Source: Pseudomonas sp. KBW05
GTDB lineage: Bacteria; Pseudomonadota; Gammaproteobacteria; Pseudomonadales; Pseudomonadaceae
Reading direction: 5' to 3'
Assembly (NCBI RefSeq): GCF_003852405.1
Contig: NZ_QAJM01000014.1
Location: forward strand, 250,969-314,968
Length of the DNA stretch: 64,000 nucleotides
Shown here: one piece after another, positions 50,569-62,069 of the stretch
Position numbering within the stretch: position 1 is the first letter of the stretch
Layout of the letters: each line of letters begins with the position of its first letter
Notes under the pieces: generated by a model
What the model was told of the DNA's origin: nothing
Database searches by the model: none
Seen by the model: only the letters and a program-made list of their open reading frames with translations
Made by a program: the position numbers and the translations under genes

Positions 50569-50746
50569 GGTGATCTCTCCACTAACTGTGTTGGAAAAGC
50601 TCAGGACGCCGGCTGCTCAGTAGGAGCTTTCGCCAGCGCTTGTGGCCTGGACCTGGAAAATAAGTGAGAATGCGGCCCACTGCGGGACGGCAAAATCGCG
50701 CCTATCATATCCAAGATTCGTCATCAGCTTAAGGCCCAGGGCTCAA

Positions 50747-51565
50747 ATGAAACGATCTGCTTTCTTTATCTCCGACGGCACCGGCATCACCGCCGAAACA
50801 TTGGGTCAAAGCCTGTTGGCGCAGTTCGAAAACATTACCTTCGCCAAATTCACGCGGCCGTATATCGACAGCGTGGATAAAGCGCGGGCCATGGTACAAC
50901 AAATCAATCTGGCGGCTGAAAAAGACGGCTTTCGGCCGATCATTTTCGACACCATTGTCAATCAGGACATTCGTGAGATCCTCGCGACTTCCAATGGTTT
51001 CATGATCGACATCTTCTCGACGTTCCTCGCACCACTGGAACAAGAGCTGAGTGAACACTCCTCGTACTCGGTAGGAAAGTCCCATTCCATTGGGCACAAC
51101 TCCAACTATATGGAGCGTATCGAGGCGGTGAACTTTGCCCTCGACAACGATGACGGCGCCCGCACGCACTACTACGACAAGGCCGACCTGATCCTGGTGG
51201 GCGTGTCCCGCTGCGGCAAGACGCCGACCTGCCTGTATATGGCCATGCAATTCGGCATCCGCGCGGCCAACTACCCGCTGACCGAGGACGACATGGAGCA
51301 CCTGACGCTGCCTGCAGCCTTGCGCTCACACCGGCACAAACTGTTCGGCCTGACCATCGACCCGGACCGCCTCACCTCGATCCGCAACGAGCGCAAGCCC
51401 AATAGCCGTTACTCCAGCTATGCACAGTGCGAATTCGAAGTGCGCGAAGTAGAAAATCTGTTCCGTCGCGAGAATATTGCGCATATCAATTCCACGCACT
51501 TTTCGGTGGAAGAGATTTCCGCGAAGATTCTGGTGGAGAAGGGTGTGGAGCGGCGGTTCAAGTAG
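50747..51565 (+). CDS. ppsR: PEP synthase regulatory protein (bifunctional kinase/pyrophosphorylase)
   Basis: PpsR inactivates PpsA by ADP-dependent threonine phosphorylation and reactivates it by phosphorolysis. The 272-residue protein has [17 protein letters not shown] at the start and the P-loop [15 protein letters not shown] at about 150-165, the marks of the DUF299 family. The ATG at 50747 has AGGG upstream; earlier frames extend only into the intergenic region. It is transcribed divergently from ppsA, which keeps enzyme and regulator linked. Confidence 0.96.
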
Positions 51566-51692: not shown

Positions 51693-53117
51693 CTACAACT
51701 GAAACCGCCCCCCACCCTGCCCCAGCGCCGTCGCCAACGCATCAAACCCCGCCAACAACAGCTGATCATCTCCGGATGTGTTGCAGACACTCGCCCGAAT
51801 AAACTGCGGCACCGCCGTCTGCCCTACGGCAAACGCCTCGGCCGTGGCGATCAGGTAATTATTCTGCTTAAGCTCCGCCTCGATCTCCGACGCGCGCCAA
51901 GGTTCCGGGACTTCGATCCAGAAGTGCGGGCTATTGAGGTGCGTGCGGTACTCAAGCCCGGCCAACAACCCCTCGACCAGGGTTTTGCGGCGGCTGATCT
52001 CGTGGATCTGCTGACGCAACAGGTATTCCGCCGTGCCGTTTTCAATCCACTGCGTCGCCAGTTCCAGGGTCACCGGCGTGGCCATCCAGCAGGTTGAGCG
52101 CAGCGCCGCCGAAATACGGCTGACCAGCGCCGGCGGCGCATGCACGTAACCCACACGCAACCCGGCCGACACCGCCTTGCTCAAACTGCTGATCAAGATC
52201 GTACGCTCGGGCGCGAAATAACTGAGTGGTGGCGGACGATCTTCCACCAACACACCGTGGGCTTCGTCTTCGAGAATCAGCAGGTTGTGTTCCCGACAAA
52301 CCCTGGCCAACGCTTCCCGGCGCGAAATCGACAGGACTGCCGTCGTCGGGTTCTGAATAGTCGGCGTGCAATACAACGCGGAAACCCGGTGGTTACGACA
52401 GACTTCATCCAAGGCCCCCGGGAGCACACCCTCCTCGTCCATCTCCAGGCCGATCAAGCGCACGCCAAGCATGCGTGCTGCGGTGATCAACCCCGGGTAC
52501 GTCAATTGTTCGGTGACCACCGTATCGCCAGCGCGCAACAACGCCATCATCGCGCAGAGCAAACCATGCTGGCCGCCATTGACGCAGATGACCTGCTCGG
52601 GAATCGGATGGAAGTCACGCTGCACCAGCCATTGCGCGCCGGCTTCGCGGTAACGCGGCAGGCCTGCATCGGGCGTGTAGGCGCTGATGTCCTGGAGAAA
52701 CTTGGCGCTGGTCGCCAGGGTTTGCAGGCTCTGGGCGAGAAACGTCGTCTCCTGCCCGGGGATATGCATGTTGCGGCTCATGTCGAAGTATTGGCGCGGC
52801 TCTTCGCTGAAGTTACGAAAGCCTTCATCACGCTGGCGCTCCATCCCACGCTTGCGCACGAAAGTGCCGTCACCCACCCGCGCCACGACCAGACCCAGGC
52901 GTTCCAGTTCGCCGTAGGCCCGGCTGATGGTGCCGATGGTCACCCCAAGATTGTCGGAAAGCACCCGGTGGGGCGGTAGCTTTCGTCCTGGTTCAATCAG
53001 CCCTTCGAGGATGCCCCGTTCCATGACATCGGACAGGCGCTTGTACTTCACGCCCTGCCCGCTGGACAACCCCTCACGCATAATTGACACCATGTCAATA
53101 TTTGTTTTGACAGCCAT
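51693..53117 (-). CDS. MocR-type regulator (GntR winged helix fused to aminotransferase fold)
   Basis: The 474-residue protein has a GntR winged helix (~20-90; LSDNLGVTIGTISRAYGELERLG) and a fold-type I PLP domain (VNGGQHGLLCAM, ILEDEAHGVL, SSLSKAVSAGLRVGY with the PLP-binding Lys). Such regulators sense amino-acid or vitamin B6 compounds through PLP. AGGGCGAAAG precedes the ATG. It is divergent from the exporter/JAMM-E1/cysteine synthase operon 103 bp away, and direct repeats of GTTCAAT lie in between, so it most likely controls that operon, with a cysteine- or serine-related ligand as a guess. Confidence 0.9.
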   Translation of the reverse strand: MAVKTNIDMVSIMREGLSSGQGVKYKRLSDVMERGILEGLIEPGRKLPPHRVLSDNLGVTIGTISRAYGELERLGLVVARVGDGTFVRKRGMERQRDEGFRNFSEEPRQYFDMSRNMHIPGQETTFLAQSLQTLATSAKFLQDISAYTPDAGLPRYREAGAQWLVQRDFHPIPEQVICVNGGQHGLLCAMMALLRAGDTVVTEQLTYPGLITAARMLGVRLIGLEMDEEGVLPGALDEVCRNHRVSALYCTPTIQNPTTAVLSISRREALARVCREHNLLILEDEAHGVLVEDRPPPLSYFAPERTILISSLSKAVSAGLRVGYVHAPPALVSRISAALRSTCWMATPVTLELATQWIENGTAEYLLRQQIHEISRRKTLVEGLLAGLEYRTHLNSPHFWIEVPEPWRASEIEAELKQNNYLIATAEAFAVGQTAVPQFIRASVCNTSGDDQLLLAGFDALATALGQGGGRFQL

Positions 53118-53220: not shown

Positions 53221-54171
53221 ATGCCAATGTCCGCCGTTCTCGAAAACGCTGAAAAAACCAAATCCCAGAAACAGTGGTTGGCCGGCCTGGTCACCAGCCT
53301 GATGTTTCTCATCGTGTGCCTGAGCTGGGGCACCACCTGGCTGGGGATCAAGATCGCCGTAGAGAGCGTGCCGCCGCTGACGTCCGCGGGCCTGCGCTTC
53401 CTGATCGCCTTCCCGCTGTTCCTGTGTTTTGCCATGGTGCGCCGCGAGCCGATCCTGTTCCCCCGGGAAAGCCGCTGGTTCTTTGTGTTCGTGACCCTTT
53501 CCTACTTCAGCGTTCCGTATTACCTGCTCAACTACGGCGAGATGCATGTGTCGTCCGGCCTGACCGCCCTGCTGTTCAGTTGCATGCCGGTGTTCATCCT
53601 GATTTTCTCCGCGCTGTTCCTGCGCGAGCGCATCTACTTCTCCCAGGTGGTCGGCATCGGTATCGGTTTCGGCAGCCTGTACATGATCATCAAGAGCCAG
53701 GGCCTGCACCTGGACCACGCCGAGTTCTTCGGGGTACTGGCGATTCTGACCGCCGCGATCATGCACGCCTTGTGCTACGTCATTACCAAGCAAAAAGGCA
53801 GCGCCATCAGCGTGATCACCTACAACACCCTGCCCATCGGCATTGCCGGGCTGATGCTGTTCGTGGCCGGGCTGTGGTTTGAAACCCCCAGCTTCGACAG
53901 CATCACCCTGCGCTCCTGGAGTGCGCTGTTCTACCTCGGCCTGGTGGCCTCGGTCGGTGGCTTCATCGTGTACTTCATGCTGCTCAAGCGCCTGAGCCCG
54001 ATCATCCTGTCGTTCGTGTTCATCATCTTCCCGGTGTTCGCGGTGATCATCGGCGCCTGGTACGAAGGCGTGGCGATTTCCCGCGACCTGATGCTGTATT
54101 CGGCCATCCTGCTGGCCGGTTTTGCGATCACCAAGTTGCCGGTTGAAAAACTCCTGGCCAAGAAAAAATGA
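53221..54171 (+). CDS. EamA-family (DMT superfamily) exporter
   Basis: The 316-residue protein has ten predicted membrane segments and two EamA repeats (LSWGTTWLGIKIAVESVPPL, and LGLVASVGGFIVYFMLLKRL in the second half). EamA proteins often export amino acids or their acetylated forms such as cysteine and O-acetylserine. AGGGA precedes the ATG at 53221; a second ATG two codons later is possible. Its TGA overlaps the frame of the next gene. As first gene of an operon with cysteine-forming enzymes, export of a cysteine-pathway product or overflow metabolite is plausible. Confidence 0.88.
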   Translation: MPMSAVLENAEKTKSQKQWLAGLVTSLMFLIVCLSWGTTWLGIKIAVESVPPLTSAGLRFLIAFPLFLCFAMVRREPILFPRESRWFFVFVTLSYFSVPYYLLNYGEMHVSSGLTALLFSCMPVFILIFSALFLRERIYFSQVVGIGIGFGSLYMIIKSQGLHLDHAEFFGVLAILTAAIMHALCYVITKQKGSAISVITYNTLPIGIAGLMLFVAGLWFETPSFDSITLRSWSALFYLGLVASVGGFIVYFMLLKRLSPIILSFVFIIFPVFAVIIGAWYEGVAISRDLMLYSAILLAGFAITKLPVEKLLAKKK

Positions 54172-54194: not shown

Positions 54195-56057
54195 ATGGAC
54201 GTCCTCCGCCCAAAAGCCCTGGAACAGATCTACGCCCACGCCAGCCGCAGCTATCCCGAGGAATGCTGTGGTTTCGTCTTCGCCGACGGCAGTGTGCACC
54301 TGGGCAGCAATATCCAGAACGAGCTGCACCGCAAGAACCCCGAGATCTACCCGCGCACCGCCGCCAACGGCTACACCTTCTCGGTGGCCGACACCCTGCT
54401 GCTGAACAAGGCGTTTCGCAGCGACAACCCGGTGGTGGTGATCTACCACTCCCACCCCGACGTCGGCGCCTACTTCAGTGACGAAGACCAGGACAAGGCG
54501 CTGTTCATGGGCGAACCGATCTTCCCCGTGAGCTACCTGGTGGTCGATGTTCGCCAGGGCCAGGCCCTGTGTTCAAAGCTGTTTGCCTGGGATGGCAAGC
54601 ATTTCGCCCTTAACCCTTTCAACGACCTGCACACGGAGTTGTCCATGAACGCTGTCTCTTTCCCCGACATTCTGGTTCGCGTGGCCAAGCTGCCAGAATC
54701 GACCCTTGAGGGCACCGGATCGACATTGCGCGAAGTCATTGAAAACCTCTGCACCAGCCACCCGCAGCTGCGCCCGCATCTGTTCCACGAAAAGAACAAC
54801 CAGCTCAAGGAACACTTCCTGTTTACCGCCGAGGAAGAGCTGATCGGCGCCGACGATCCACTCCCAGGCAAAGCCCGGATCGAAGTGTTGCTCGCCACGT
54901 CCGGCGGCATGGATGTGCAGACGTTGAGCAATGAAGAAGTACAACGTTACGTGCGCCATATCACCCTGCCGGGCGTCGGCCGTGAAGGCCAGTTGAACCT
55001 GAAGAAAGCCAAGGTGCTGATCATCGGCACCGGCGGCCTGGGCTCGCCCATCAGCCTCTACCTGGCGGCGGCCGGCATCGGCACCCTGGGCCTGGTGGAT
55101 TTCGACGTGGTGGAAAGCAGCAACCTGCAACGCCAGATCGTCCACGGCAACAGCACCTTAGGCATGCCCAAGGTCGAGTCCGCCAAGCAGCGCCTGCAAG
55201 ACCTCAACCGCCATATCCAGATCAACGCCCACGACACCGCCCTGAATGCCGACAACGCCCTGGAACTGGTGGGCGCCTACGACCTGGTGATCGACGGCAC
55301 CGACAATTTCGACACCCGCTACCTGGTCAACGACGCCTGCGTCCAACTGGGCAAACCCTTGGTGTACGGTGCCATCTACCGTTTCGACGGGCAGATCAGC
55401 GTGCTCAACTATAAAGGCGGGCCGTGCTACCGCTGTCTGTTTCCCCAGGCACCGCCCGCTGAACTGGCGCCCAATTGCAGCGCCGGTGGCGTGATTGGCG
55501 TGCTGCCCGGTGTGGTCGGGATGATCCAGGCCACCGAGGCGATCAAGTTGCTGATCGGCATCGGCGAACCCTTGTCCGGCCGCCTGATGCGCTTCGATGC
55601 GCTGGCGATGAAATTCAGCGAGATCCGCTTCAAGCGCCGCGCCGACTGCCCGTGCTGCTCGGACCTGCGCCACAGCGCAACCCAGGCCCCGGCGGTCTGC
55701 GCCGACGCCGTGCCCGGCACGCCATCGCTGGCCGCAGAGCGCTACATCAAGCCGCGCGTGCTCAAGCAACTGCTCGAGCATCCCCGCAGCGCCGACGTAC
55801 TACTGGACGTGCGCGACGCCAGCGAGCTGGAAGTGTGCAAATTGCCGGGCGTGGTACACATCCCCCTGGCCGAGCTGGATGGGCAACTCGACAGCCTCAG
55901 CCGCGACAACACCCACTACCTGATCTGTTATGCCGGCACCCGCGCCGAGCAAGCGGCCACCACCCTGCTGGCGGCCGGCTTCGCCAACACCAAAGTCCTG
56001 CAGGGCGGCATGAAACATTGGGTGCGCGACGTCGAACCCGATATGCCTTTGTATTGA
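54195..56057 (+). CDS. JAMM peptidase-CysO/ThiS ubiquitin fold-MoeZ-like E1-rhodanese fusion
   Basis: Four units make up this 620-residue chain. (1) JAMM/MPN+ zinc isopeptidase, ~1-148: E22 or E23, H85-x-H87, S95 and D98 form the complete HxH-x7-S-x2-D site. (2) Ubiquitin-like CysO/ThiS domain, 151-238, ending in S-G237-G238. (3) MoeB/ThiF-type E1, ~243-495: GTGGLG at 278-283, R313, D370, zinc Cys 411/414/485/488, Cys428. (4) Rhodanese, ~515-620: C578-Y-A-G-T-R loop. In Mycobacterium separate Mec, CysO and MoeZ proteins give cysteine from a carrier thiocarboxylate with CysM; here a CysM-like gene follows directly. The ATG at 54195 has GAGAG upstream; 54168 is less likely. The internal GG must be freed for thiocarboxylate chemistry, which is unexplained. 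Confidence 0.92.
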   Translation: MDVLRPKALEQIYAHASRSYPEECCGFVFADGSVHLGSNIQNELHRKNPEIYPRTAANGYTFSVADTLLLNKAFRSDNPVVVIYHSHPDVGAYFSDEDQDKALFMGEPIFPVSYLVVDVRQGQALCSKLFAWDGKHFALNPFNDLHTELSMNAVSFPDILVRVAKLPESTLEGTGSTLREVIENLCTSHPQLRPHLFHEKNNQLKEHFLFTAEEELIGADDPLPGKARIEVLLATSGGMDVQTLSNEEVQRYVRHITLPGVGREGQLNLKKAKVLIIGTGGLGSPISLYLAAAGIGTLGLVDFDVVESSNLQRQIVHGNSTLGMPKVESAKQRLQDLNRHIQINAHDTALNADNALELVGAYDLVIDGTDNFDTRYLVNDACVQLGKPLVYGAIYRFDGQISVLNYKGGPCYRCLFPQAPPAELAPNCSAGGVIGVLPGVVGMIQATEAIKLLIGIGEPLSGRLMRFDALAMKFSEIRFKRRADCPCCSDLRHSATQAPAVCADAVPGTPSLAAERYIKPRVLKQLLEHPRSADVLLDVRDASELEVCKLPGVVHIPLAELDGQLDSLSRDNTHYLICYAGTRAEQAATTLLAAGFANTKVLQGGMKHWVRDVEPDMPLY

Positions 56058-56072
56058 GCCGGGGGCTGACTG

Positions 56073-56987
56073 ATGCTGCATAACTCCATTCTCGACGTCA
56101 TCGGCCATACGCCGATTGTGCGCCTGGCGCAGTTTTCCGAAGACCTCGGCATCGAGGTCTACGCCAAGCTCGAATCCCTCAACCCTGGCGGCAGCCACAA
56201 GGCGCGCATCGCCCTGGGCATGATCCTCGACGCCGAGCGCCGTGGCGTGCTGATCCGTGACGCCGGGCAAACCATCATCGAGCCCAGCGGCGGCAACACC
56301 GGCATTGGCCTGGTGATGGCGGGCAACGTGCTGGGCTACAAAGTGGTGCTGGTGATCCCCGACAACTACAGCCCCGAAAAGCAAAAGCTGCTGCGCCTTT
56401 ACGGCGCCAAGGTGGTGCTGTCGGACAGCCGCCTGGGCAACAATTCCCACGGCGAAAAGTGCTTGGAACTGCAACTGGAAAACCCCAGCTACGTAATGCT
56501 CAACCAGCAGCGCAATGGCGCCAACCCGCAAACCCACCGCGACACTACCGCGCCCGAGATCCTGCGTGCCTTCGGTGAACGGCGCGTGGACTACTTCGTC
56601 AGCGGCATCGGCACCGGTGGCCACATCACCGGCATCGGCGAAACCCTCAAGGCCGCCTGGCCGGAGCTGCGCGTCATGGGCGTGGAGCCGGAAGAGTGCG
56701 ACCTGCTGAAAAACCAGCACGCGCCGCACCATATCCAGGGCCTGTCGATCGGCCTGATCCCCAGCATCCTCAACCTGGATGTGCTGGACGGCATGCTCAA
56801 GGTGTCGCGCCAGGAGTGCATCGACATGATGAAACGCATCATGCGCACGGATGCCATCAGCCTGGGCCTGTCCTCGGCCGCCAACATGGTGGCCATTGCC
56901 AAGCTCGCCCCGGAGCTGCCCACCGAAACAGTGGTACTGACCATGGTCTACGACAATGCCGACAGCTACCTGCCCAGTTTCGAATAA
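56073..56987 (+). CDS. cysteine synthase family PLP enzyme (CysM/CysK-like)
   Basis: The 304-residue enzyme has the Asn-Pro loop with the PLP Lys (NPGGSHKAR, K43), the substrate loop PSGGNTG (71-77) and the phosphate-binding GIGTGGHITG. The usual motif after the Asn-Pro is SxKDR; SHKAR is unusual and may alter specificity. The gene starts 15 bp after the fusion gene. By analogy with mycobacterial CysM it would join an activated serine (O-acetyl- or O-phosphoserine) to a protein thiocarboxylate; simple sulfide-dependent synthesis is the alternative. A serine acetyltransferase encoded next favours O-acetylserine. Confidence 0.88.
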   Translation: MLHNSILDVIGHTPIVRLAQFSEDLGIEVYAKLESLNPGGSHKARIALGMILDAERRGVLIRDAGQTIIEPSGGNTGIGLVMAGNVLGYKVVLVIPDNYSPEKQKLLRLYGAKVVLSDSRLGNNSHGEKCLELQLENPSYVMLNQQRNGANPQTHRDTTAPEILRAFGERRVDYFVSGIGTGGHITGIGETLKAAWPELRVMGVEPEECDLLKNQHAPHHIQGLSIGLIPSILNLDVLDGMLKVSRQECIDMMKRIMRTDAISLGLSSAANMVAIAKLAPELPTETVVLTMVYDNADSYLPSFE

Positions 56988-57024
56988 GCGGTTTCCCAAC
57001 CATCCAGAATGCGGGGGTGCCTCC

Positions 57025-58017
57025 ATGGGGGGCTTTATTGACATGCAACAGCTGCACGATGAGTTGCTCACCCACCTCATCAAGACCCTGACGCCGACGC
57101 AGATGAAGCAGCTGGAACCGCACCTGGCGCCATTGGTGCAGAACGCCGCCCAGGCCGTGGCCGAAGACTTGATCGCCTATGCCTACCGTGACCCGGCGTC
57201 GCGAGGCCGGGGCGAACTGATCCTGGAGTCCTACGCCTCGTTCAAAGCGGTGCTGTTCTACCGCCTGGCGCACCTGGTGTGGAATTTCCCCGACCAGGTC
57301 AACGGCGTGTTTTCGCGCATTGCCCTCAAGCTCAGCAACCAGGGCAAGATCCTCTCCGGCGCCGAGATCCACCCGGCGGCGCGTATCGGCCGGCGTTTTG
57401 TACTCGACCACGGCTACGGCACGGTGATCGGCGAAACCTGTGAGATCGGCAACGACTGCTACATCCTTTGCGGCGTGACCCTCGGTGCCCGTGGCATCGC
57501 CAACAACCCGGACGGCAAGCGCCACCCGCGCCTGGGCAACAATGTCGAAGTCGGCTCCGGCGCGCGCGTGCTGGGCTATGTGCTGATCGGCGACAACGTA
57601 TTTATCAGCCCATCCTGCGTGATCACCCAGGACGTGCCCCCAGGCACCAAGGTCAAGGTGGTCAACCAGGTGCAATTGCAAAAAAACGACGAGTCCGAGC
57701 ACAGCAATTACCTCGGTGCCTTCGCCCTCGACGAGCGTCTGCACGTGGTCGGCGAAATCAACGCCAACCACAAGGTCACGGTGCTGGACGCCGACTTTCA
57801 CCCCTTGCAGGGCCTGATGCTGGAGCCGACGGTGAAAGAGCGTCACCACCTGCAATTTCGCCTGCACCGCATTGAAGCCGACAGCCACCTGCCGCGCCTG
57901 CCACTGAACCTGAAGGTCTGCGGCCCGGAGTTTGAAATCACCCTGCTTTCCCCACCTGGCTTGAGTGCAATGGTGCGTCACCTGTTGCAAACCAGCCCTT
58001 TGAACGTCGGAGGTTGA
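57025..58017 (+). CDS. serine acetyltransferase-like protein with C-terminal extension
   Basis: The protein (330 aa) has an N-terminal helical region with YRDPASRGRGE and FYRLAHLVW, then a left-handed hexapeptide helix with GAEIHPAARIG, FVLDHGYGTVIGET, GVTLGARG and GDNVFISPSCVIT, as in CysE, which makes O-acetylserine. After about residue 215, where CysE ends, comes ~110 residues (ALDERLHVVGEINANHKVTV ... GPEFEITLLSPPGLSAMV) that I do not recognise. ATG at 57025 has GGGGG upstream; 57043 (MQQLHDELL) is nearly as good. It would feed the CysM-like enzyme. Confidence 0.85.
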   Translation: MGGFIDMQQLHDELLTHLIKTLTPTQMKQLEPHLAPLVQNAAQAVAEDLIAYAYRDPASRGRGELILESYASFKAVLFYRLAHLVWNFPDQVNGVFSRIALKLSNQGKILSGAEIHPAARIGRRFVLDHGYGTVIGETCEIGNDCYILCGVTLGARGIANNPDGKRHPRLGNNVEVGSGARVLGYVLIGDNVFISPSCVITQDVPPGTKVKVVNQVQLQKNDESEHSNYLGAFALDERLHVVGEINANHKVTVLDADFHPLQGLMLEPTVKERHHLQFRLHRIEADSHLPRLPLNLKVCGPEFEITLLSPPGLSAMVRHLLQTSPLNVGG

Positions 58018-58019
58018 AC

Positions 58020-58748
58020 ATGTCCGTGCACACCATGGAAACCCTGGCGCTGTTCGACAGCGCGCCCTACCAGAATGCGTTCAGCGCTCGGGTCATCGCC
58101 GTCAGCGAACACGGCATCGCCCTGGAGCACACGCTGTTCTATCCCACGGGCGGCGGGCAGCCGGGCGACACCGGCCACTTCACCCTGGCCGATGGCACGC
58201 GGGTCGAGGTCGTCGGCACCGTGCGCGACCCGGTGTTGCGCTCGATCATCTGGCACCAGGTGGAACACTGCCCCGAACAGTTGACCTCTGGCGTGCAGGT
58301 TGACGCCGGCCTCGATTGGGAACGGCGCTACCAGCACATGAAGATGCACACCTGCCTGCACCTGTTGTGCTCGATCATCGACGCCCCCGTGACCGGTTGC
58401 AGCATCAGTGCCGACAAAGGTCGCCTGGATTTCGACCTGCCGGAAATGACCCTCGACAAGGACAGCATCACCCGCGACCTGAACGCGCTGATCGCGCAGG
58501 CCCACACGGTGAAGGCCCTGTCGATGCCCGCCTCGGAGTATTCGACCCTGCTGCAAATCACCCGCACCCAGGCGGTTGCGCCGCCGGTGGTGCAAGGCTC
58601 GGTGCGCATCATTGAAATTGCCGGGGTGGATATCCAGCCATGCGGCGGCACCCATGTGATCAACACCGAGGAAATCGGCCGGGTGTTTTGCGAAAAAATC
58701 GAGAAGAAGAGCAAGCACAACCGCCGCGTCATCCTGCGTTTTGAATAA
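58020..58748 (+). CDS. AlaX-type alanyl-tRNA editing hydrolase
   Basis: The 242-residue protein resembles the editing domain of alanyl-tRNA synthetase: FYPTGGGQPGDTG, the zinc motifs HTCLH (HxxxH) and CGGTH (CxxxH). Such proteins hydrolyse Ser- or Gly-tRNA(Ala). GGAGG lies just before the ATG, and the previous stop codon is 3 bases upstream, so it belongs to the operon. It might protect translation when serine derivatives rise, or act on another aminoacyl or thioester substrate made by this pathway (speculative). Confidence 0.88.
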   Translation: MSVHTMETLALFDSAPYQNAFSARVIAVSEHGIALEHTLFYPTGGGQPGDTGHFTLADGTRVEVVGTVRDPVLRSIIWHQVEHCPEQLTSGVQVDAGLDWERRYQHMKMHTCLHLLCSIIDAPVTGCSISADKGRLDFDLPEMTLDKDSITRDLNALIAQAHTVKALSMPASEYSTLLQITRTQAVAPPVVQGSVRIIEIAGVDIQPCGGTHVINTEEIGRVFCEKIEKKSKHNRRVILRFE

Positions 58749-58985: not shown

Positions 58986-60731
58986 ATGAATAAAGTGCTC
59001 CGTCACTACATACCAGCCTCCACATTGCGCTTGCTGCCCAATCGCTGGGACCTGGTCGCCCTGCCGCTGGTGATCGGCTTTCTGCTGTTTTTTTCCATCA
59101 CCGCACGGGAAACCTGGGCGCCCATCGACACGTTGCAGAGCGAGGTCATCTCCCTCGACCCGGCCAACCTGCCGGAATACGCCATGCGCACCACCCTGCG
59201 CATGCTCGCGGCGATGGTGGCGGCGCTGGTGTTCACCTTCCTCTACGGCACCCTGGCGGCAAAAAGCCGACGCGCCGAAAAACTCCTGGTACCGGTGCTC
59301 GACATCCTGCAATCGGTGCCGGTGCTCGGTTACATCTCCTTTACGGTGACCTTCTTCCTGCTGCTGTTTCCCGGCCGTGTGCTCGGCGCCGAGTTTGCGG
59401 CGATCTTTGCGATCTTCACCAGCCAGGCCTGGAACATGACGTTCAGCTTCTACCAGTCGCTGCGCATGCTGCCCCATGACCTGGTGGAAGTGTCCACCAA
59501 CCTGCGGCTCTCCGGCTGGCAACGCTTCTGGAAGCTCGACGTGCCCTTTGCCATGCCCGGCCTGGTGTGGAACATGATGATGAGCATGTCCGGTGGCTGG
59601 TTTTTTGTGGTCGCCTCCGAAGCCATCACCGTCGGCGACAAGACCATCACCTTGCCCGGCGTGGGTTCGTACCTGGCCCTGGCCATCGCGCAGAAAGACC
59701 TGCATGCCGTGGGCTACGTGATCCTGGCAATGATCGCGGTGATCCTGATCTACGACCAGTTCCTGTTCCGCCCGCTGGTGGCCTGGGCCGACAAATTCCG
59801 TATGGAAACCACCGCCTCCCAGGGCGCCGCGCCGCAATCCTGGGTGCTCAACCTGATCCAGCGCACGCGCATGGTCCAGCGCATCCTGCGCCCCATCACC
59901 CGCACCATCGGCCGAATCGGCAACAAACGTTTCAGCCTGGCCGGCGGTGCGCTCAAGGCATTGCCCACGGAATCACCGGCGGCCTCCAAGGTGATCGACT
60001 GGGTGTGGGGCGCGTTGATTGCCGTGCTGACCGCCTACGCGCTGTACCACATCGTGATGTACGTCGGCACCGAAGTGACCTTCGCCGAAGTCGGCCATGT
60101 CTTTGTGCTGGGCTTGATCACCCTGCTGCGCGTGACGGGCTTGATCCTGATTGCCTCGCTGATCTGGGTGCCGCTGGGGGTGATGATCGGCCTGCGCCCG
60201 CGCTTGGCGCAAAAGATCCAGCCCGTGGCGCAGTTCCTCGCAGCGTTCCCGGCGAACCTGCTGTTCCCGGTGTTTGTCATCGTGATCCTGCACTACCACC
60301 TCAACCCGGACATCTGGCTCAGCCCACTGATCGTGCTCGGCACCCAGTGGTACATCCTGTTCAACGTGGTGGCCGGTGCCAGTGCGTTTCCCAATGACTA
60401 CAAGGAAGCCGCCGCCAACTTTCGCATTCGCGGCTGGTTGTGGTGGCGCAAGGTGATGCTGCCGGGGATTTTCCCCTACTACGTCACCGGCGCGATTACC
60501 GCCTCGGGCGGTGCATGGAACGCCAGCATCGTCTCCGAGTACGTGTCCTGGGGCCAGGACAACGTGGTCGCCCACGGCCTTGGCGCCTACATCGCGCAAA
60601 CCACCGCTGCCGGCGATTTCCCGAAGATCGCCCTGGGCGTGGTGGTGATGTCGATCTTTGTGGTGGTCTTCAACCGCGCAGTCTGGCGCCCGATGTACGC
60701 CCTGGCGGAAAACAAACTGCGTCTGAATTGA
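58986..60731 (+). CDS. ABC transporter permease, two permease domains fused
   Basis: The 581-residue protein contains two binding-protein-dependent permease domains in tandem, each with about six membrane helices and an EAA-type loop (LVEVSTNLRLSGWQRFWKLDVPFAMPG outline in the first; YKEAAANFRIRGWLWWRKVMLPG outline in the second). The sequence type is that of NitT/TauT importers (nitrate, sulfonate, taurine and similar anions). AGGA lies before the ATG. It is followed 15 bp later by its ATPase; no substrate-binding protein is encoded here. Substrate unknown. Confidence 0.9.
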   Translation: MNKVLRHYIPASTLRLLPNRWDLVALPLVIGFLLFFSITARETWAPIDTLQSEVISLDPANLPEYAMRTTLRMLAAMVAALVFTFLYGTLAAKSRRAEKLLVPVLDILQSVPVLGYISFTVTFFLLLFPGRVLGAEFAAIFAIFTSQAWNMTFSFYQSLRMLPHDLVEVSTNLRLSGWQRFWKLDVPFAMPGLVWNMMMSMSGGWFFVVASEAITVGDKTITLPGVGSYLALAIAQKDLHAVGYVILAMIAVILIYDQFLFRPLVAWADKFRMETTASQGAAPQSWVLNLIQRTRMVQRILRPITRTIGRIGNKRFSLAGGALKALPTESPAASKVIDWVWGALIAVLTAYALYHIVMYVGTEVTFAEVGHVFVLGLITLLRVTGLILIASLIWVPLGVMIGLRPRLAQKIQPVAQFLAAFPANLLFPVFVIVILHYHLNPDIWLSPLIVLGTQWYILFNVVAGASAFPNDYKEAAANFRIRGWLWWRKVMLPGIFPYYVTGAITASGGAWNASIVSEYVSWGQDNVVAHGLGAYIAQTTAAGDFPKIALGVVVMSIFVVVFNRAVWRPMYALAENKLRLN

Positions 60732-60746
60732 GGGGGATTCACCCAG

Positions 60747-62069
60747 ATGTCTACTACGACCGAACACACCGCCGACACCCCGCAAATCTATTCGCTGAAA
60801 GACGTGAACCGGGTGTTCGGCAAAGGCAAAGATGAACTACAAGTGCTCAGCGGCGTCGACCTGAGCCTGCACGAAGGCGAGATCGTCGGCATGCTCGGCC
60901 GCTCCGGCTCCGGCAAATCGACCCTGCTGCGCATCATTGCCGGGCTGATCCAGCCATCGTCGGGCGAGGTGCATTACCACGGCGTGCCGCTGACCGGCCC
61001 GGCCGAGGGCGTGGCCATGGTGTTCCAGACCTTCGCCCTGTTCCCCTGGCTGACGGTGCTGGAAAACGTCGAAGCGGGCCTGCAAGCCTTGCAGGTCGAA
61101 CGCAAGGAAACCCGCCGGCGCGCCCTGGCCGCCATCGACCTGATCGGCCTGGACGGTTTTGAAAACGCCTACCCCCGCGAGTTGTCTGGTGGCATGCGCC
61201 AGCGCGTCGGGTTTGCCCGTGGCCTGGTGGTCAACCCGACCCTGCTGCTGATGGACGAACCCTTCTCCGCCCTCGACGTGCTCACCGCCGAAACCCTGCG
61301 CACCGACTTGCTGGACCTGTGGAGTGGCAAGCAGTTGCCGATCAAGTCGATCCTGATCGTGACCCACAACATCGAAGAAGCGGTGCTGATGTGCGACCGC
61401 ATCCTGGTGCTGTCCTCCAACCCCGGCCGGGTGGTCGCCGAGATCAAGGTGCCGTTTGCCCACCCGCGCAACCGGCTGGACCCGACCTTCCGGCAAATGG
61501 TCGATGACATCTACGCGCTGATGACCGACCGGCGCAGTGCCGATGCCAGCGCCGGCAAGCCCGAGTTGAAAATGAGCAGCCTGCTGCCGGAAGTCTCCAC
61601 CAACCTGATGGCCGGCCTGATCGAAACCCTCGCCGCCGAGCCCTACAACGGCCACGCCGGTTTGCCCACCGTGGCCGAGCGGCGCCTGCTGGAAGTCGAC
61701 GACCTGTTTCCCGTGGCGGAGATGCTGGAGCATCTGGGCTTCGCCGAACTCAAGGGCGCCGACATCACCCTCACCGACGCCGGCAAATTGTTTGCCGACT
61801 ATGGCACCCAGGAACGCAAGACGCTGTTCGCCGAGCACCTGATCCAGCACGTGCCGTTGGCTGCACGCATTCACCAAGTGCTGCTCGAACGCAGCGGCCA
61901 CCGCGCGCCTCGGGTGCGTTTCGAGCAGGAGCTGGAGGACTCGATGACCGAGGCGTTCGTGGAAAAAACCCTGGAAAGCGTGGTGGCGTGGGGAAGGTAT
62001 GCGGAGATTTTTTCGTATGACGACCATACCGAGACGTTTAGCCTGGAGGACGTTGAAGGCAGTATGTAA
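60747..62069 (+). CDS. NitT/TauT-type ABC transporter ATPase with C-terminal AAA-associated domain
   Basis: The first ~260 of 440 residues form the nucleotide-binding domain: Walker A GRSGSGKST, Q-loop VFQTFALFPWLTV, signature LSGGMRQRVG, Walker B LLLMDEPFSALD, and H-loop VTHNIEEA. The remaining ~170 residues match the AAA-associated C-terminal domain seen on a subset of these ATPases (LPTVAERRLLEVDDLFPVAE ... DAGKLFADYG), winged-helix-like and presumed regulatory. AGGGGGATT lies before the ATG. With the double permease it makes a two-gene importer. Confidence 0.9.
   Translation: MSTTTEHTADTPQIYSLKDVNRVFGKGKDELQVLSGVDLSLHEGEIVGMLGRSGSGKSTLLRIIAGLIQPSSGEVHYHGVPLTGPAEGVAMVFQTFALFPWLTVLENVEAGLQALQVERKETRRRALAAIDLIGLDGFENAYPRELSGGMRQRVGFARGLVVNPTLLLMDEPFSALDVLTAETLRTDLLDLWSGKQLPIKSILIVTHNIEEAVLMCDRILVLSSNPGRVVAEIKVPFAHPRNRLDPTFRQMVDDIYALMTDRRSADASAGKPELKMSSLLPEVSTNLMAGLIETLAAEPYNGHAGLPTVAERRLLEVDDLFPVAEMLEHLGFAELKGADITLTDAGKLFADYGTQERKTLFAEHLIQHVPLAARIHQVLLERSGHRAPRVRFEQELEDSMTEAFVEKTLESVVAWGRYAEIFSYDDHTETFSLEDVEGSM

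Follow-up and report, generated by a model that had tools for sequence, protein, structure and literature searches.

A Pseudomonas gene that joins a JAMM protease, a buried CysO-like sulfur carrier, an E1 and a rhodanese, with a probable internal translation start

Introduction

In the established chemistry of ThiS, MoaD and CysO, adenylation of a sulfur carrier requires a free carboxylate. An open reading frame of Pseudomonas sp. KBW05 therefore raises the question of how a carrier could be used whose terminal Gly-Gly lies in the middle of a longer chain. The frame lies in a 64,000-nucleotide stretch of DNA, here called the window. An initial annotation of the window described an isopeptidase, a ubiquitin-like carrier, an E1 and a sulfurtransferase on one chain, with the active-site residues of all parts present and the carrier's Gly-Gly (237-238) buried mid-chain ahead of Met239 and the E1, and it proposed that the JAMM isopeptidase might release it by acting on its own chain. 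We compared the locus with its relatives and asked which parts of this picture hold, where the protease stood before it joined the chain, and what the chain and its neighbors might make.

Results

Two ATG codons could open the frame: ATG 54168, giving 629 amino acids, and ATG 54195, giving 620. Many relatives align with the 629-aa form only from its residue 3 to 11 onward, and ATG 54195 is the likely start of the four-domain frame; residues are numbered on the 620-aa form, as in the initial annotation. The features of the frame, with the evidence for each, are as follows.

54195..56057, + strand: four-domain open reading frame (JAMM, carrier, E1, rhodanese), 620 aa; Pfam and NCBIfam
54195..54599, + strand: JAMM metalloprotease domain, residues 1-135, with H85, H87, S95 and D98; Pfam Prok-JAB, 4.6e-16; residues invariant
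54600..54644, + strand: linker, residues 136-150, a putative former intergenic spacer, with a Shine-Dalgarno (SD)-like GGAG at 54635-54638; split-locus comparison; dN/dS 0.441
54645..54647, + strand: probable internal start ATG (Met151) of a 470-aa carrier-E1-rhodanese; synonymous constraint; SD core in 72/72
54645..54908, + strand: predicted CysO-like beta-grasp sulfur carrier, residues 151-238, ending ATSGG; profile, AlphaFold2 model, Foldseek and Gly-Gly conservation
54903..54911, + strand: joint Gly237-Gly238-Met239, with a predicted JAMM cut after Gly238; Gly-Gly invariant
54948..55655, + strand: MoeZ/ThiF-type E1 domain, residues 252-487, with Cys428 at 55476-55478; Pfam ThiF, 1e-82; residue conservation
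55758..56027, + strand: rhodanese domain, residues 522-611, with Cys578 at 55926-55928; Pfam Rhodanese, 2.5e-14; residue conservation

We compared 72 distinct fused sequences with 14 in which the JAMM is a separate gene (split sequences). The HxH-S-D catalytic residues of the JAMM (H85, H87, S95 and D98) are intact in 72/72 and 14/14, and G237, G238, C411, C414, C428, C485, C488 and C578 are likewise identical in every sequence of both sets; C487 is variable among the split ones. Purifying selection acts on all four domains (dN/dS 0.047 to 0.140, against 0.441 in the linker), and this, together with the residue invariance, argues that the four-domain arrangement did not arise by chance. In our genome collection the four-domain frame is intact in 63 of 66 fused-clade loci, drawn from the best 79 of 235. 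The single-chain anatomy and the active-site residues given in the initial annotation, down to their numbers, were thus confirmed, by Pfam for three of the domains and by profile and fold for the carrier. An AlphaFold2 model of the full chain (29 rows) reached a pLDDT of 59.7, and no claim made here rests on it.

We then considered the joint between carrier and E1. LATSGG stands at the joint in 79 of 79 loci (the best of 235 found, with weaker relatives outside the sample), although the peptides used as search patterns did not contain the Gly-Gly, and it is always internal, in fused and split forms alike; neither form encodes a carrier with a free C-terminal Gly-Gly. The expectation that the Gly-Gly of homologues would always be conserved here was accordingly borne out, as was its position ahead of Met239 and the E1. 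The residue that follows is not fixed: it is Met in 53 and Ile in 19 of the 72 fused sequences, Leu in 13 and Ile in 1 of the 14 split ones, and Thr in two more distant loci (L086 and L165). In the synonymous-site scan described below the codons of the joint show no constraint (z about +1.5 to +2.1), and conservation therefore acts on the protein and not on a nucleic-acid signal. Since adenylation needs a free carboxylate, an invariant buried Gly-Gly implies that the chain would be cut. The locus also has the features of a carrier matured by a JAMM, in that the sequence continues past Gly-Gly and a JAMM is encoded alongside in 79/79 (best 79 of 235). In L151, which comes from a single-contig genome, the reading frame shifts within the joint itself, at about 2683-2710, so that its JAMM-carrier ends ATSGERA; this is either an error or a real break. 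Three other frame breaks (L062, L064 and L084) lie outside the joint. Met239 was rejected as an internal start, because the position is Ile in 19/72 fused and Leu in 13/14 split sequences, has no SD core upstream and lies among freely varying codons.

In 13 of the best 79 of 235 loci the JAMM is a separate upstream gene with its own stop codon. These split loci come from Paraburkholderia, Vreelandella, P. alcaligenes, P. indica and others, and the gene after the JAMM has its own SD and ATG and encodes a carrier-E1-rhodanese with the same internal Gly-Gly. Two further genomes (L153 and L165) have the split arrangement, the E1 of L165 being frame-broken. Because JAMM and carrier-E1 are separate chains in these loci, cutting in trans must suffice there. 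An unfused arrangement is seen at L087, where a carrier ends in LSGG followed by a stop immediately upstream of the E1; standalone carriers near an E1 elsewhere end GGCF (L156), GGAR (L157), GG (L159) and GGK (L162). A single branch (99/98) of the phylogenetic tree set all 72 fused sequences apart, with the split locus L081 next to them and several of the split rows flagged as long branches. Taken together, the split relatives and the single branch indicate that the carrier-E1-rhodanese is the older fusion and that the JAMM joined it later, in a single event within the P. fluorescens group, to give the four-domain chain. A 631-aa open frame in one genome (G411; L117 and L153) was examined as a second, independent fusion and rejected, since its JAMM lies in another frame and has its own stop, and the locus is hence split.

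Members of the P. fluorescens group commonly have the operon: among 250 genomes sampled from the genus, the carrier was found in 42 (E below 1e-39), and nine more gave weak matches only. Of those 42, 39 have an open frame of at least 636 aa (with the JAMM seen in frame in 30 and nine judged by frame length only), two are split (G411 and G890, the latter being the L069 locus) and one is frameshifted (G916, the genome of L151). L069 also appears as L146 and L152 and was counted once. In a sample of 398 genomes from the phylum, nine matched, six of them within Pseudomonas and three weakly.

The split loci also bear on the linker. In the window it ends in FNDLHTELS-M and is much like the stretch that separates the JAMM stop from the following start codon in L081, with CGGAGTTG and ATGAACGCTGTCTCT present in both, suggesting that the old ribosome site and its ATG (54635-54647, Met151) survive within the fused frame, a point that the initial annotation had missed. 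We therefore looked at synonymous codon variation along the gene in 72 distinct sequences out of 90 intact fused frames; 112 had been examined, and the 22 excluded comprised 15 split frames, 3 frameshifted ones and 4 (L027, L056, L071 and L142) that lacked the exact extraction motif. The lowest synonymous variation of the entire frame fell at the Met151 region (11-codon window, z -4.46, reached in 0 of 2,000 shuffles, the null being shuffled codon columns, which ignores local autocorrelation). Codons around the internal start are nearly fixed even though they are uncommon in the gene as a whole: ACG accounts for 68 of 68 Thr codons, TTG for 70/72, GCT for 72/72 and TCT for 71/72, against gene-wide use of 13.8, 17.2, 5.1 and 3.2%, respectively. 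An SD core at 4 to 9 nt precedes Met151 in 72/72 sequences and other in-frame Met codons in 11 of 654. The energy of the SD duplex, by comparison, did not single out Met151 among the 72 sequences, ranking it first in 1, second in 64 and third in 7.

A second scan, of 64 sequences, again placed the minimum of the four-domain gene around Met151 (codons 144-157), the best z at the 5' end being only -2.77. As a control, we scanned seven neighboring genes and found the minimum at or near the start in five: within the first 18 codons in ppsA, MocR and AlaX, and just before Met36 and Met24, assumed to be the true starts, in PSRP and CysE. The minima of EamA and CysK were not at the start and were weak (p 0.058 and 0.065). 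The four-domain gene has a second constrained stretch, at 172-185, which weighs against the start reading. On this evidence, initiation at Met151 is quite probable; it predicts a second product without the JAMM, and the gene probably makes both the 620-aa chain and a 470-aa carrier-E1-rhodanese.

Separately, the minima just before Met36 in the PSRP frame (50642-51565) and just before Met24 in the CysE-like frame (56956-58017) were of interest for those genes themselves, and the scan suggests that both frames as listed begin too early. Scans of this kind may prove useful for locating translation starts in general.

These results divide the proposal of self-processing. Conservation of the Gly-Gly, the constant presence of a JAMM and the precedents for JAMM cutting support processing by the JAMM, whereas the part of the proposal that confined cutting to the enzyme's own chain is not supported, given the separate JAMM of 13 loci (best 79 of 235) and of L153 and L165. 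A strict self-processing polyprotein, in which the JAMM would act on no chain but its own, with the internal start as a relic, agrees with the finding of JAMM and joint on one chain without a frame break in 63 of 66 fused-clade loci (from the best 79 of 235) and with a 15-residue linker free of stops and frameshifts in 72 aligned sequences, which had been selected as intact so that broken ones were excluded. We nevertheless regard it as unlikely, because relatives work with a separate JAMM in 13/79 loci (best 79 of 235) and because the supposed relic is the most constrained stretch of the frame at synonymous sites.

The carrier was the one domain that gave no Pfam match at E 0.001. When the ThiS profile was scanned over the genome, it scored 20.0 bits, below the cut-off of 22.5. 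However, a profile of the carrier (alignment A1) matched a ThiS/MoaD-family chain, 4n6e_B, at E 1.7e-4, which is the CysO chain of the BexX/CysO complex. An AlphaFold2 model of the carrier reached a pLDDT of 85.6, and Foldseek matched it to SAMP1 (3po0, the top match), to 4n6e_B and to M. tuberculosis CysO (3dwg_C and 3dwm_A), with E values from 7.8e-6 to 4.8e-4. The carrier is thus predicted to have a CysO/SAMP1-like fold, a CysO-like beta-grasp with a Gly-Gly.

The same genome has other carriers with a free Gly-Gly end: a MoaD-like carrier, a ThiS-like carrier and a third whose neighbors are another JAMM and E1-rhodanese. The last belongs to a second set (G000:C23:132976-134815) in which the carrier, ending AVAGG, the JAMM and the E1-rhodanese are three separate genes, a natural comparator for the fused chain. 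Such carriers would be expected if the four-domain chain stayed uncut, its carrier serving as a docking or regulatory module while a separate carrier did the sulfur chemistry. Yet a docking module would not need ATSGG, which is invariant while its codons drift, and a JAMM with intact catalytic residues accompanies it in 86 of 86 sequences compared, which makes the uncut chain rather improbable.

Finally, we examined the neighboring genes, which in the order MocR, EamA, JAMM, carrier-E1-rhodanese, CysK-like, CysE-like and AlaX form an operon with a divergent regulator. Counts in the list refer to the best 79 of 235 loci.

51693..53117, - strand: MocR-type regulator (GntR plus aminotransferase), divergent; same place in 79/79
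53221..54171, + strand: EamA-family exporter; 79/79
56073..56987, + strand: CysK-like PLP synthase with altered loop PSGGNTG; loop in 79/79
56956..58017, + strand: CysE-like serine acetyltransferase (true start perhaps Met24); 78/79
58014..58748, + strand: AlaX-type alanyl-tRNA editing protein; 78/79

The genes from MocR to the CysK-like synthase are in place in 79/79 loci (best 79 of 235), and L065 is the only one of them that lacks the CysE-like and AlaX genes. In the CysK-like protein the loop reads PSGGNTG against CTSGNVG and PTSGNTG in two aligned structures, and GSHKAR stands against GSVKDR and GSIKDR; its best solved match is the O-ureido-L-serine synthase 3x43, slightly ahead of cysteine synthases. 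Given the altered loop, the product may not be plain cysteine, and the substrate may be unusual. The AlaX-type editing protein, in an operon for a sulfur amino acid, hints at a product that could be mischarged onto tRNA. An ABC transporter farther on (58986-62069) was rejected as an operon member, since 21 of the 66 fused-clade loci have it and none of the 13 split ones do, although 75 of the 79 (best of 235) extend at least 5 kb downstream. Among the six operon proteins scanned there was no AMP ligase or CoA transferase, the mark of PDTC/quinolobactin-type systems in the text of PMC1779556.

A ubiquitin-like conjugation system with the JAMM as deconjugase, although favored by SAMP1, a modifier, as the best fold match of the carrier and by the prediction in the text of Iyer et al. 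2006 (PMC1779556) that JAB-linked E1s lie nearer to ubiquitin transfer, is very improbable, since the rhodanese has its Cys intact in 86/86 sequences, CysK-like and CysE-like genes share the operon, and the six operon proteins scanned with Pfam and NCBIfam gave no E2 match, an E1 with rhodanese and no E2 differing from the E1/E2/JAB systems of that text.

Discussion

The anatomy of the chain, its conservation, the order of the fusions and the nucleotide constraint at the internal start are observations, and the model that we favor, with moderate confidence, builds on them. It is a protein-bound-sulfur pathway like that of CysO, Mec and CysM, in which the carrier is capped by its own E1 and the gene has two products. 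The carrier would be synthesized capped, its Gly-Gly joined to the N terminus of its own E1-rhodanese, and the JAMM would cleave after Gly238 to free its end. The E1 could then adenylate the freed glycine, with the rhodanese providing sulfur for a thiocarboxylate, and the CysK-like synthase would transfer the carrier's sulfur onto an acetylserine-type substrate made by the CysE-like enzyme. A second JAMM cut at the same Gly-X bond would release the product. On the simplest reading, Gly238-X would thus be cut twice per cycle, once for carrier maturation and once for product release.

The JAMM would have come onto the same chain in the P. fluorescens group when a stop codon was lost, with the internal ribosome site kept, a combination that would lead to two products. 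The 620-aa chain could cut itself or others, and the 470-aa form would depend on cutting in trans. Once cut, the long form would still have its carrier tied to the JAMM. More speculatively, one gene might use its conserved internal start to make two proteins with different roles, a self-cutting chain whose carrier stays permanently tied to the isopeptidase, and a 470-aa form as the source of free carrier. Sulfur would then be routed according to the proportion of the two forms, and the product of the altered CysK-like enzyme would be not plain cysteine but another sulfur amino acid, one that needs EamA export and AlaX tRNA proofreading. We put this forward tentatively, as a possible but doubtful extension.

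Whichever products are made, a cap that is the activating E1 fixes the ratio of carrier to E1 at one to one and keeps the carrier inactive until cut. The retained start offers a testable case of a gene fusion that keeps its old translation start, one that is visible through synonymous-codon constraint alone.

The closest functional parallel is the M. tuberculosis pathway, in which, according to the text of PMC3227635, MoeZ loads sulfur onto CysO, which CysM joins to O-phosphoserine, and Mec then frees the cysteine. The locus has the same kinds of parts, namely a CysO-like carrier, a MoeZ-type E1-rhodanese, a cysteine-synthase-family enzyme and a JAMM-type protease of the kind that acts on the Gly-Cys bond. 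Unlike M. tuberculosis CysO, described there as a separate protein, the carrier has its Gly-Gly joined to the E1, with the JAMM joined too in the P. fluorescens group; CysE-like, EamA, AlaX and MocR genes stand alongside, and the CysK-like loop is altered.

In genomic terms the locus resembles operon type 4c of Iyer et al. 2006 (PMC1779556), which has the same gene kinds (ThiS/MoaD, E1-rhodanese, JAB and cysteine synthase) and P. aeruginosa among its hosts; the four-domain chain and an internal start are not mentioned in the passages searched. By gene names only, P. aeruginosa PA2100-PA2106 (PMC9431628, PMC9866376 and PMC13256707) is an operon of the same kind, in the split form, with JAMM (PA2102) and MoeB (PA2103) separate. 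The first genes of this operon appear among those upregulated by N-acetylcysteine (PMC9431628), most of its genes are listed in an RpoH study (PMC9866376), and PA2104, a probable cysteine synthase, was not chosen for study in the passages of PMC12800425; the literature passages searched assign no function to this operon.

Blocked carriers freed by a protease have several precedents in the passages searched. DRJAMM cleaves MoaD-MoaE, a fusion whose activation is said to depend on it (PMC8832034), MoaX needs a cut after Gly82 by a protease not identified in the text of PMC4326299, carriers with a blocked Gly-Gly typically need a protease, as in the pairs QbsE/QbsD and PtmS2/PtmS1 (PMC6006322), and Iyer et al. 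2006 raised the possibility that JAB releases ThiS or MoaD from fusions with other proteins (PMC1779556). As in MoaX, MoaD-MoaE, QbsE and PtmS2, the Gly-Gly here is blocked downstream and a protease would have to expose it. The cap there is MoaE or one or two residues, whereas here it is the activating E1-rhodanese, with the protease on the same chain. The text passages searched contained no report of the four-domain chain or its internal start; relative to that literature, JAMM cutting of capped carriers is already known, and the E1-rhodanese cap, the four-domain fusion and the probable internal start are new. The locus thereby extends the idea of the capped sulfur carrier to a cap that is itself the activating enzyme.
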